From: a virus
IMG/VR virus record: IMGVR_UViG_3300018080_000439
Location: 1-30,929 of that record
Length of the DNA stretch: 30,929 nucleotides
Reading direction: 5' to 3' (one strand)
Both the position numbers and the translations under genes were made by a program. Positions 5,830-22,414 of the stretch are shown piece by piece. Within the stretch, counting starts at the first letter, position 1. Every line of letters begins with the position of its first letter. The notes beneath the pieces are model-generated. The model was not told the DNA's origin. It was given only the letters and a program-made list of their open reading frames with translations, and did not search any database.

Positions 5830-6549
5830 CTACCCTTCGAGGTACTTGTTGAGGACGTCCGTGACCGCGTCCATGTTGCCGCCGTTCGCCAGGCAGCGGA
5901 CAGCGTCGTTCACGGCCTTCTTGAATCCGGGGAATCCGAAGCTGTCCATCAGCAGCGAGGTGCGGCGCATGGAGGAGTCGATGGCGGACAGAGACTTGGT
6001 CACGTCAGCGATGACGTTCTCCGCTATCTGCTTGCGTGTCTCCAGCATGGTCGGCACGGTGGTGCCGTCCGTGTTCCAGGAGTGACCACAGTCGTTGCAG
6101 ACAGCCGACTGGTTGGCGCTGTCGTACTTGACGTACTTGGCACTGTCACACACCGGACAGACGATAGACGGCCTGACCAGCTGGTTCGGGTTCCAGTTGA
6201 AGGTGGACTCATTCTCAACGTAGAGGTTGTGGTCGCGGATGTACTTGCGGATGAGGTCGTACATGTCCTCGACCTTGGCGAAATTCTTGGAGTAGTAGGT
6301 GCCGAGCGTGTGGCCGAATGTGTTCAGGATGCTGATGGCGTCGCCGTACACCTGGAGCCGCACGGTCGTGGGTTCGTTGTAGAATGCCTTGATGGCCGCG
6401 TCTACCTGGTCAGCGTCGATGTCGGCGTTGCCGTGTTCCTTGCCGAGGTTCTTGCTGATCTCGTGAACGTCCTGGTCGCTGCTCTCGATGTTGAGCGCGA
6501 ACACCCTCAGGGCAACCATCTTCTCGAGTGCGGTGCGTGGCGTTGACAT
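5830..6549 (-). CDS. Zinc-ribbon hypothetical protein, 239 aa, first gene after the hammerhead-like leader
   Basis: The ATG at 6549 follows GAGAGGAGAG. The N-terminal ~115 residues are helical and acidic. The middle holds a clear zinc ribbon, Cys131/Cys134 and Cys151/Cys154 (CPVC then CNDCG), and the C-terminal ~80 residues are helical (ETRKQIAENVIADVTKSLSAID). Zinc ribbons of this CPxC...CxxCG type often bind DNA, RNA or RNA polymerase. It is the promoter-proximal gene of the 6549-2544 leftward operon, directly downstream of the ribozyme-like element, so it may be made early and in quantity. No family name can be given. Confidence 0.7.
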   Translation of the reverse strand: MSTPRTALEKMVALRVFALNIESSDQDVHEISKNLGKEHGNADIDADQVDAAIKAFYNEPTTVRLQVYGDAISILNTFGHTLGTYYSKNFAKVEDMYDLIRKYIRDHNLYVENESTFNWNPNQLVRPSIVCPVCDSAKYVKYDSANQSAVCNDCGHSWNTDGTTVPTMLETRKQIAENVIADVTKSLSAIDSSMRRTSLLMDSFGFPGFKKAVNDAVRCLANGGNMDAVTDVLNKYLEG

Positions 6550-6565
6550 GGTCTCTCTCCTCTCT

Positions 6566-6619
6566 GCTGTTTCGTCCTTCCGGGACTCATCGGCGCCAGC
6601 TGCTGAACTGGCGGACAGC
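6566..6619 (-). ncRNA. Type III hammerhead ribozyme-like motif in the 5' leader
   Basis: On the - strand, in order: stem III strand GCUG (6619-6616), U16.1 and C17 (6615-6614, a GUC cleavage triplet), stem I CGCCAG with CUGGCG (6613-6608 and 6599-6594) closed by an 8-base loop, core CCGAUGA (6593-6587), and stem II GUCC/GGAC (6586-6583 and 6577-6574) with a 5-base loop. GAAA (6573-6570) and the closing strand CAGC (6569-6566) follow. Every hammerhead element is present, with all stems perfect. The one departure is C in place of the conserved U4 of CUGANGA, which could weaken or abolish cleavage. Predicted cleavage is between 6614 and 6613, about 65 bases before the ATG at 6549. Confidence 0.75.
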
Positions 6620-6620
6620 G

Positions 6621-6642
6621 GGGCGGCGGTGTGCTGCCGCCC
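6621..6642 (-). other. Hairpin abutting the hammerhead-like motif
   Basis: GGGCGGC (6621-6627) pairs with GCCGCCC (6636-6642), leaving an 8-base loop. It ends one base before stem III of the hammerhead-like element. After cleavage it would sit near the 3' end of the 5' fragment and could protect it from exonucleases. Confidence 0.6.
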
Positions 6643-6793: not shown

Positions 6794-6835
6794 AAAAAAA
6801 CGGGTCCCCAGCCAGATGGCCAGAAACCCGCCTTT
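6794..6835 (-). terminator. Bidirectional rho-independent terminator
   Basis: CGGGT (6801-6805) pairs with ACCCG (6826-6830), with an inner GCC/GGC stem (6811-6820). On the - strand it is followed by a run of seven T (complement of 6794-6800); on the + strand by TTTTT (6833-6837). It lies 22 bases beyond the stop of the DUF932 gene and ends the upstream leftward transcript. Confidence 0.85.
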
Positions 6836-6856
6836 TTGATACCATTGACGCGTGTT

Positions 6857-18945: not shown

Positions 18946-19918
18946 TAAGAGCCTCCTTCAGTTGGGTGGTGAACTTCTCACGCTGGTGCGGGAACCGCCG
19001 AGCCGACTGCGGGTGCAGGCAGTGGTGGAACTCGACACCAGGATAGATGGAGTGGAACGTGTGCGCCGCCCTGTCACCGAACACGACGACGCGACGTACG
19101 TGGTCCAGGCACCGCTCCACTGCCTTGGCTCCAAACGTGTCATTGATGTTGGTCCACACGCCGCGGTACTCCGGCCACCTCAGCCGGTCCAGTTCCCTGG
19201 CCAGGTACAGCGACGAGTTCGCGTACTCGTAGAACGGCCACACTCGGCTGCCGCTGCCCTTCACCTTTGCCTGGTCACCGACGAACAGCGTGTCGGCGTA
19301 GTTGAGGTTGCCCAGGAAGTTGTCGCCACACGTCTGCAGCTGCGGGTATCGCGGCCGCTGGAGGTGGCGCCGGACGTTGTTGACCAGTGCCTCGGGCGAC
19401 GTGAACTTCATCAGGAACCCGAACACGTGCGGCCAGCGTTCCATCGGGGAGTAGTGACCCTCCTTCGACTTGAACACCGACCGCTCGCTGTGGTTCCAGT
19501 ACAGCTCGTCATACCCGGCCACGACCTTGGTCATGTCCTCGAACATCTCGAACCGCTCCTCACGCAGCCTGGCGAACCGCTTCTCGTGCTCCGGGTCCGC
19601 CTGGCAGACGACGTACACGCCGCCATACCTGGTGAACACCCGGTCCATCATCCGCCCCATCAGCGGCCACCTGGTGCCGCCACGATACACCGCGGCGTAC
19701 ACCAGCTCGGACGGCCACCAGCGGTCCAGTATGACCGGACGACCAGTGCGCTCTACCCGGTCCACGGCGTGGCGGAGGATGGCCGTGTGGTACAGGTGCA
19801 TCCGCCTCACGTACTTGCAGCCGGCGTGCAGGTACGTCTCCGCCCCGAGCTCCTTGCGAAAGGCCTCGGCCAGCGTCGACTTGCCGGTGCCGTCCGCTCC
19901 CTCCAGGCAGATTATCAT
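18929..19918 (-). CDS. dNMP kinase fused to a UDG-like domain, 329 aa
   Basis: The ATG at 19918 (MIICLEGADGTGKST) follows GAGGAGGT, and its first bases overlap the TGA of the upstream gene. Residues 1-190 are a thymidylate-kinase-like P-loop domain: GADGTGKST (7-15), then ILDRWWPSE with the DR motif (65-66) that binds the monophosphate. Residues ~205-325 form a separate domain: LFVGDQAKV, SSLYLARELD, VWTNINDTFG, VVVFGDRAAHTF, CLHPQSARRF. This order matches the uracil-DNA-glycosylase superfamily (motif 1, Asn strand, GxxA strand, HPS motif). The kinase would charge modified dNMPs. The UDG-like half may recognise, remove or modify a non-standard base. The fusion is unusual. Confidence 0.7.
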   Translation of the reverse strand: MIICLEGADGTGKSTLAEAFRKELGAETYLHAGCKYVRRMHLYHTAILRHAVDRVERTGRPVILDRWWPSELVYAAVYRGGTRWPLMGRMMDRVFTRYGGVYVVCQADPEHEKRFARLREERFEMFEDMTKVVAGYDELYWNHSERSVFKSKEGHYSPMERWPHVFGFLMKFTSPEALVNNVRRHLQRPRYPQLQTCGDNFLGNLNYADTLFVGDQAKVKGSGSRVWPFYEYANSSLYLARELDRLRWPEYRGVWTNINDTFGAKAVERCLDHVRRVVVFGDRAAHTFHSIYPGVEFHHCLHPQSARRFPHQREKFTTQLKEALNVGSD

Positions 19919-21897
19919 GACGACCTCCTCAGCCGGAGGACCCACAGGTTGTTGCGCGCCAGGTCAGGGTACATGGGAGCGAAGAAGCACGACAGCGCGT
20001 CGTTGTCGTAGTACGCCGACAGGTCGTCCATGACCTCCCGGTGTTCCTTCGACAGCTGCTTCTTGACGCCGGCCGTCACGTTCATGAAGGTACCGAACCG
20101 GTTGACCACCTCGAAGCCGGTGTCTACCAGCATCTTCTCCAGCTCCGGCACGGTGTACTCATGCAGGTGCGCCCTGGCCGCGCGGCCGTTGAACACCGGC
20201 GTGGACAGGAACAGCAGCGTGTCACGGCTCATGAGGGCGGCGATGTTCTTCAGCATCGTCCGGCCGTCCTTCTTGTGCATGTGCTCCAGGACCTCGAGGC
20301 AGGCGATGTGCGTGTACCCCATGTAGTCGAGCAGCACCTTCCACTTGGCCAGGAAGTTGAACTCGTCGAAGATGACCGCGTTCTTCCGCTGCGGCTTCTT
20401 CCTGATTGGGTTCAGGTCCACGCCGACGTAGAGCTTCGGCTCCTTGCCCTGGACGCCGTCGGTCAGCAGGTGCATCAGCGGGACCTCCTGGCCGCAGCCC
20501 ACGTCCAGGATGACCGCGTGCCGCTGCACGTACCGCCGGAGGAACGACCAGCGGAAGAAGTGGGCGGAGTAGTCGCGGTGGCAGTTGAGACCCTTGGAGG
20601 ACAGCTTGAGCTGGCTGCGGTCAAACCGTTCCTCACGCTCCAGGGGAGCGTCGGACCCCACGCGACGCTGCTGCACTCTCTTTGCTCTGGCTGCTCTGCT
20701 GGCGGGTTGTGCTGACAGGTCCAGCTCTTCCTGGTGCACTTTCGGGGCAGCCGGCCTCTTACGCGGCACTGTGGCCACCGGTGGAGCACTGCGTGGACGC
20801 ACCATGACACTCACCGGGGGAAGCGGTCCACCTATCTCCACTGTGGTCTCCACCTGGTGCTCTGCGCCGCGGAGTGCTTCAATGACGCGGAGGCGTCGGT
20901 CTTTGCCGACCGACCTGCCAGCCCTCAGCGTGAGGTCCACCGACCTGGCCAGCCACTCCCCGACCTTGCTGCTGACGCCGCGGCCACAGTAGTGGTACGC
21001 GCCGGTGCCACCGGGGAACTTGTAGTCCTTGGGGAAGTCAGCCAACGCCTGGTGCTCGGACAGGTGGATGAACCGGTCCTCGGACGGGTGCGCCAGCGGG
21101 TACGCCATGATGGTTGGACACAGGCCGTCCCCGTTCAGACGCTGCAGGCCGAACGATGGCCTCCCCTTGACGTTGCCCTTGGCGTTCAGCTCCCTGGTCT
21201 CCGGTGGGTTCAGCCGCTCCCACACCTTGGACAGCCGCTCGCCTGGCTCGGCTGCCTGGATGACCGGGATGAGTTTGTCAGACCAGCCGTGCGCCCACAC
21301 CTGGCCGTTCGGCTTGACGCCCTTCAGACGCTGTGCGACGGTCACGGCTGGCTTTGACTCGTAGTGCTCGGGGCAGAAAACCTTCTTGGACCCAATCAAC
21401 AGCAAACGGCGGCGGTCCTGGCAGCTGCCCATGAAGCAGGCGTTGTGGAAGAAGATGTGCGGACGGTACCCCATGCGCTGGGTCCACTCCACCATCTCCT
21501 GGACCATGGCCGGCGCCTTCGTGTACATCTGGCAGACCGACTCGACGGCGAACACCTTGGGCTGGCACGCCTCGACCTGGTTCATCACGTTGTACCAGCA
21601 CTCGCACCGCGGGTCGCTCTTGTAGCTGTCCGCCCCATAGCTCCTGGTGTTCGCGTTGCTGAACGCGGCGCATGGCGGGTTGGCGAACAGCAGGTCCAGC
21701 TTCTTGTTTACCGGCCAGTTGGCCGGACCAGCGTGCACCGGCATGCTTCCCCAGTACCGGTCACGGTTCATGTCGATGACGTCCAGGCCGTACGGCTGCG
21801 GGTCCTCACAGTGCCCGACGACATCCATGTGCTTCAGGACACCGAGTGAGAAGTTCCCGGCGTACACGTAGCAGGCCATCGCGTTCCTTTGCGGCAT
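19915..21897 (-). CDS. C5-cytosine-methyltransferase-like protein fused to a second SAM methyltransferase, 660 aa
   Basis: The start at 21897 follows AGAAAGGAGAG (21902-21912); a second ATG at 21879 also has an AAGGAA site. The N-terminal ~340 residues carry C5-MTase motifs: LLFANPPCAAFS with Cys76 (motif IV), AVES (VI, residues 117-120), QDRRRLLLIG (VIII) and a late RFIHLSEHQALADFP (IX). Motif I (YAGNFSLG) lacks the usual FxGxGG and the motif X is degenerate. After a Pro/Arg linker, residues ~465-655 are a class I SAM methyltransferase: ILDVGCGQ, GVDLNPI, ACLEVLEH and STPVFNG. The fusion could modify cytosine in two steps or add a different group. Placement beside TS-like and kinase genes suggests base hypermodification. 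Confidence 0.75.
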   Translation of the reverse strand: MPQRNAMACYVYAGNFSLGVLKHMDVVGHCEDPQPYGLDVIDMNRDRYWGSMPVHAGPANWPVNKKLDLLFANPPCAAFSNANTRSYGADSYKSDPRCECWYNVMNQVEACQPKVFAVESVCQMYTKAPAMVQEMVEWTQRMGYRPHIFFHNACFMGSCQDRRRLLLIGSKKVFCPEHYESKPAVTVAQRLKGVKPNGQVWAHGWSDKLIPVIQAAEPGERLSKVWERLNPPETRELNAKGNVKGRPSFGLQRLNGDGLCPTIMAYPLAHPSEDRFIHLSEHQALADFPKDYKFPGGTGAYHYCGRGVSSKVGEWLARSVDLTLRAGRSVGKDRRLRVIEALRGAEHQVETTVEIGGPLPPVSVMVRPRSAPPVATVPRKRPAAPKVHQEELDLSAQPASRAARAKRVQQRRVGSDAPLEREERFDRSQLKLSSKGLNCHRDYSAHFFRWSFLRRYVQRHAVILDVGCGQEVPLMHLLTDGVQGKEPKLYVGVDLNPIRKKPQRKNAVIFDEFNFLAKWKVLLDYMGYTHIACLEVLEHMHKKDGRTMLKNIAALMSRDTLLFLSTPVFNGRAARAHLHEYTVPELEKMLVDTGFEVVNRFGTFMNVTAGVKKQLSKEHREVMDDLSAYYDNDALSCFFAPMYPDLARNNLWVLRLRRSS

Positions 21898-21910
21898 GCC
21901 TCTCTCCTTT

Positions 21911-22414
21911 CTACAGCAGCTCACCGAGCTGCGGTGGTTTCCATCCCTCCGGCTTGACCACGTCGAAGGTGCTGTCTCGCTTGCTGTCTGACTTGCGCCT
22001 GGCCCGGACCTTGGTCATGTTGGCTGCCTGGACGCGACGCCAGGCCTCCTCGAAGATAGTGACGTTGACCGGGCACAGCGAGGTGGTGTGTCCCTCCTCC
22101 ACCTCCATGACAACTCGCTTCTCGTTGAACATGCCCATCAAGTACGCCGTGCCGAGCAGCACGTACTGCAGGTCGACCAAGGCGTCCAGGGCTCCCTCCA
22201 GGTCGTTGACCCGGCCGCGCTTGTTGGAGGGAACGAACTGCTTGAGGCCGTCATGGAAGTAGAACCCGCATGACGTGGCCAGCTCAGTCAGTTCCTCCAT
22301 CAGGAAGTTCAGCCGCATCTTCATGTAGTCGCGCTCGATGAACCCGGCCTTCTTGCGGTTCGGCAATCCGAACTTCCGGTGGAACGATCTGATGTCCTCC
22401 AGGAACTTGTTCAC
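21911..22414 (-). CDS. MazG-like all-alpha NTP pyrophosphohydrolase, 167 aa
   Basis: The GTG at 22414 (VNKFLEDIRSFHRKFG) follows AGAAAGGAGAG (22420-22430); further in-frame codons upstream have no site. The helical core has FLMEELTELA (EExxE-type metal site) and LEGALDALVDLQYVLLGTAYLMG (second acidic helix, D..VD), typical of MazG and HisE-like pyrophosphohydrolases that split nucleoside triphosphates to monophosphates. The C-terminal part (VQAANMTKVRARRKSDSKRD...VKPEGWKPPQ) matches the usual 'NmsKv...g' tail. In T4 an enzyme of this general type destroys dCTP and provides dCMP. Here it would feed the TS-like enzyme. Substrate is inferred. Confidence 0.8.
   Translation of the reverse strand: MNKFLEDIRSFHRKFGLPNRKKAGFIERDYMKMRLNFLMEELTELATSCGFYFHDGLKQFVPSNKRGRVNDLEGALDALVDLQYVLLGTAYLMGMFNEKRVVMEVEEGHTTSLCPVNVTIFEEAWRRVQAANMTKVRARRKSDSKRDSTFDVVKPEGWKPPQLGELL

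Follow-up and report, generated by a model that had tools for sequence, protein, structure and literature searches.

Genes and leader elements at the locus

The stretch of DNA analyzed here, hereafter the window, comprises the 30,929 nucleotides of a viral record that can be assigned to a tailed phage by its terminase and portal genes, which are encoded rightward. The leftward genes encode a DNA polymerase, a topoisomerase-like protein, UvrD and SNF2 helicases, a primase-like protein, and a cytosine methylase. Since these leftward genes are of the DNA-replication type, it is plausible that the leftward operon is early. One leftward reading frame (positions 19915-21924, minus strand) fuses a C-5 cytosine methylase domain with a second methyltransferase domain.

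The element described here, a type III hammerhead ribozyme motif, is located on the minus strand between a DUF932 gene and the first gene of a leftward block (5830-6549, minus strand). The latter encodes a 239 amino acid protein with a four-cysteine, zinc-ribbon-like segment that falls below the Pfam cut-off, and no homologues of this protein were found in IMG/VR or in the phage collection. The sequence-only reading of this DNA had proposed a comparison of the same position in related phages; this comparison identified no close relative that has this gene at that place. DNA searches of the phage collection returned short chance matches only, and the best relative by neighboring gene (L130, 58% identity in that gene) has no hammerhead there.

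The DUF932 gene is followed by a long and very stable stem carrying seven consecutive U residues (approximately 6798-6837, minus strand; folding z = -5.4), which is the probable terminator of that gene. A simple terminator scan did not list this stem, perhaps since the stem includes the T run. A search of the leader for the sigma-70 promoter consensus gave no match. Folding and comparison identified a G+C-rich hairpin of 7 bp (6621-6642, minus strand; arms 6642-6636 and 6627-6621) that ends one base before stem III of the hammerhead. A strand of this hairpin, GCGGCAGC (6640-6633, minus strand), could alternatively pair with GCUGUCCGC (6619-6611, minus strand) across the cut site. On the other side, the ribozyme is separated from the ATG at 6549 by 16 nt (6565-6550), within which a purine-rich ribosome-binding region of the AGAGGAG type (6554-6563, minus strand) can be read from the consensus. 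The distance of 16 bases to the gene start and the 7-bp hairpin directly upstream, both described in the sequence-only reading, are thus as it had placed them, and the hammerhead immediately precedes the start of a phage gene, as in other phage leader hammerheads.

Structure of the hammerhead and support from models and folds

Positions 6619-6566, read on the minus strand, encode a complete type III hammerhead, in the order GCUGU-C, CGCCAGUUCAGCAGCUGGCG, CCGAUGA, GUCCCGGAAGGAC, GAA, and ACAGC. Both the covariance models and the predicted fold give the expected topology, in which loops cap stems I and II while stem III is left open. Stem III is formed by 5 bp, including the U16.1-A15.1 pair, between G6619-C-U-G-U6615 and A6570-C-A-G-C6566. 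The cut site has the NUH form, with G-U-C at 6616-6614 and the U16.1-A15.1 pair completed by A6570, and alignment and hammerhead numbering place the predicted self-cleavage between C17 (6614) and 6613. Stem-loop I (6594-6613, minus strand) pairs 6613-6608 with 6599-6594 over 6 bp in the predicted fold and could reach 8 bp if closed by a CAGC loop. The catalytic core segment CCGAUGA (C3 C4 G5 A6 U7 G8 A9; 6587-6593, minus strand) leads into stem-loop II, GUCC-CGGAA-GGAC (6574-6586, minus strand), which has 4 bp (6586-6583 with 6577-6574) and a CGGAA loop and is followed by G12-A13-A14-A15.1 at 6573-6570. Judged by eye, a loop-loop contact between UUC of loop I and GAA of loop II is possible. 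When compared with the consensus core (C3 U4 G5 A6 N7 G8 A9 and G12 A13 A14), the sole mismatch is C in place of U4. Our re-reading therefore agrees with the earlier description in two respects, namely that all hammerhead parts occur in order on the minus strand and that C at U4 is the lone deviation, with all remaining core positions matching the consensus.

A search with a type III hammerhead covariance model, which the sequence-only reading had suggested as a check, returned a match. In a cmscan of a 401-nt piece against all of Rfam, RF00008 (Hammerhead_3) aligned over its full length (1-54 of 54) with 35.4 bits (E = 4e-6), although this score is under the Rfam gathering score of 48.5. When RF00008 alone was run over the whole record, the E-value was 8e-8 and no second match was present in the record; none of 14 control genomes gave an RF00008 match. 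It should be noted that the gathering score is a threshold set by the curators and not a structural feature, and that none of 18 phage records with an RF00008 match (type III hammerhead records, most of them with perfect cores) reaches 48.5, the best scoring 47.8 bits. Whole-window cmscans did not list the hammerhead at either the gathering threshold or an E-value threshold, the latter miss being attributed to speed filters, and found no second RNA element in the window. In addition, we built our own covariance model from 15 phage type III sequences with a consensus core, all with U4 and with the window left out. With this model nothing but the window hammerhead matched, scoring 48.2 bits (E = 1.2e-11 on a rough calibration).

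The motif was absent from all 300 dinucleotide shuffles of the window, loose criteria included. Both the minimum-energy and the centroid folds of an 86-nt leader piece correspond exactly to the hammerhead, and a 221-nt piece likewise has it as its minimum-energy fold. As energies alone, these folds do not stand out (z from -0.3 to -2.2). Covariation on alignment A1 is strong, but partly built in, given that the sequences were picked by requiring those stems. The earlier assignment to type III is thus upheld by two independent covariance models, the fold, and the comparison with phage hammerheads, as described below.

Recurrence in other phages and variation at core position 4

For the comparative analysis, a structure-based finder was applied to the fetched loci and the window, which identified 30 type III hammerheads (24 non-identical) and 201 type I hammerheads (167 non-identical); all placement and hairpin statistics that follow are drawn from loci picked by one stem II pattern. 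Among the 167 non-identical type I sites (loci L002-L129), cut sites peak sharply at approximately 19-35 nt before an ATG, and 71% lie within 40 nt of one, compared with 19% of random positions. In most other type III matches, the ribozyme ends approximately 14-33 nt ahead of a start codon; some lie closer, some farther, and a few have no nearby ATG. These distances are counted from the end of the ribozyme, since those from cut site to ATG include some spurious ATGs that lie within it.

For 16 of the 24 type III hammerheads, the preceding 39 nt include a hairpin of at least 7 bp, compared with 7% of random positions, and this hairpin usually ends 0-7 nt before stem III. When the set is collapsed by eye to lineages, the association is seen in about 6 or 7 of 14, so that the effect remains, in small numbers. 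Examples of a hairpin before a type III cut site include L092, L097, L114, L040, L045, L051, and L011, and in several phages the unit of hairpin and hammerhead is repeated. The records of L045, L094, L051, L092, and L114 each contain four to seven RF00008 matches, some of which possibly belong to other hammerhead types. The hairpin is the only feature common to the upstream leaders of other type III hammerheads, in which no conserved leader sequence was found.

To place the substitution at position 4, IMG/VR was scanned for the core within the stem II frame of the window with either pyrimidine at this position, which returned at least 120 contigs. Besides the window, C4 occurs in 4 of 126 matches among the matches listed. 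A scan for C4 only identified 10 IMG/VR contigs and 2 matches in bacterial genomes, and inspection showed that nine of the former and one of the latter (one MAG) are proper hammerheads. The pattern matches in L126 and L129 look like chance sequence and were left out of the hammerhead counts; neither matches RF00008, although L129 reaches 24 bits with our own model. The C4 hammerheads span roughly nine lineages, the window counted, and are otherwise intact. With the same core and stem II pattern, neither A4 nor G4 was found in IMG/VR, and the G5A transition was equally absent. Two of the C4 contigs, L069 and L124, are identical to the window over the 25 bases that make up the core, stem II, and GAAAC, whereas their stems I and III differ from those of the window yet are fully paired. 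Moreover, near-identical ribozymes occur with U4 and with C4 (L054/L080 and L064/L087, respectively).

Since C4 recurs while A4, G4, and G5A are absent, it can be regarded as a tolerated variant and not as random loss; on this pattern of occurrence, C4 is best read as a rare but recurrent core substitution and not as evidence of decay. In the account given in PMC3088659, a viroid ribozyme with U4C is considerably slower in vitro and is nevertheless sufficient in vivo, the viroid being infectious. Because the deviation recurs in intact phage hammerheads and has been reported as active in a viroid, it bears on the rate of cleavage and not clearly on class membership.

Proposed function, alternatives, and known parallels

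The window has the sequence, structure, and position of a type III hammerhead, and the same architecture recurs in other phages. Ribozyme activity is likely and possibly slow. In our reading, the 5' leader of this leftward phage operon contains a real type III hammerhead, which probably cuts itself between 6614 and 6613 and is probably slowed by C4. In such a scenario, the leader would fold during transcription and cleave itself at this site, leaving an upstream fragment whose 3' end would carry a 2',3'-cyclic phosphate immediately after a stable hairpin, and an operon mRNA that would have a hydroxyl group at its 5' end, with stems I and II next to it. The ribosome-binding site would be exposed about 50 nt beyond the new 5' end. 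The leader would thereby be trimmed to a fixed, structured 5' end that may be insensitive to 5'-phosphate-dependent decay, and the operon mRNA would become independent of where transcription began. C4 would probably slow the cut without abolishing cleavage.

The main alternative is that the hammerhead is decaying or already inactive, with C4 as the first mutational hit, the fallback that had been offered in the sequence-only reading. The rarity of C4, its scattering over lineages beside U4 sisters (L080 by L054; L087 by L064), and the considerable loss of in vitro activity caused by U4C in the account of PMC3088659 are what a decaying ribozyme could show. However, in the window no other core base is altered and none of the three stems is broken, C4 has been seen about nine times while A4, G4, and the equally easy G5A were never seen in IMG/VR, and L069 and L124 retain C4 with re-paired stems. 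Taken together, these observations disfavor decay, which we regard as improbable.

Two further proposals appear less probable still. The main product could be the upstream fragment, a stable small RNA with a hairpin end that is freed from the leader by the cut, and the stretch from the probable terminator (about 6798) to the cut site is structured and without an evident gene, and would end in a stable hairpin. This proposal is very unlikely, given that other phages share only the hairpin and not a conserved leader sequence, and that the leader has no identified promoter. Least probable of all is a regulated ribozyme, in which pairing of GCGGCAGC with GCUGUCCGC would mask the cut site and cleavage would depend on which pairing wins. 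The alternative pairing is evident in the sequence and a slow C4 core would fit a regulated cut, but the predicted folds favor the hairpin together with the hammerhead, and no ligand or signal is suggested.

Returning to the self-cleaving leader hammerhead, a broader and rather doubtful extension is that the recurrent cassette of hairpin and type III hammerhead is a standard phage device that protects the ends of both mRNA halves. In some lineages, that of the window included, C4 would then be a slower setting favored by selection, its timing perhaps governed by the upstream hairpin competing with stem III. The locus provides a clean phage example in which the position is defined and the core variant is a recurrent one; sharp placement before start codons, the hairpin before most type III cuts, and the tolerance of C4 where the other changes tested are absent make the idea of mRNA processing directly testable. 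Perreault et al. (2011) have put forward the idea that hammerheads of phages may trim long transcripts to operon-length or gene-length mRNAs (PMC3088659), and what phages use hammerheads for is still listed as an open question (PMC6155905, PMC10085705).

Among known systems, the window hammerhead shares with Rfam RF00008 the three stems, the open stem III, the GUC cut site, and the CNGANGA and GAAA core segments, and differs from it in having C at core position 4 and in a score below the gathering score, the latter as in the other phage type III examples tested. The viroid U4C hammerhead (Ambros and Flores, 1998, cited in PMC3088659) has the same core substitution and is described there as active in vivo and slow in vitro; it serves viroid RNA replication, whereas that of the window is located in a phage mRNA leader. 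The IMG/VR phage contigs L069 and L124 carry an identical core and stem II, CCGATGAGTCCCGGAAGGACGAAAC, in a type III hammerhead upstream of an ORF, and differ in stem I and stem III sequences of their own, both re-paired. The best published parallel is HHphage of haloviruses HF1 and HF2, in which a polycistronic phage transcript likewise has a hammerhead immediately ahead of the start codon of its first gene, 13 nt away there (PMC3088659) and 16 nt away in the window. HHphage has core insertions near C3 (PMC3088659), whereas the hammerhead of the window has the substitution at position 4 and is immediately preceded by a hairpin. In HF1/HF2 the hammerhead precedes an early helicase gene, and the 5' end of the mRNA has been mapped within 3 nt of the cut (PMC3088659). 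The window hammerhead is accordingly of a kind already known, being one of hundreds of hammerheads that phages put before genes.
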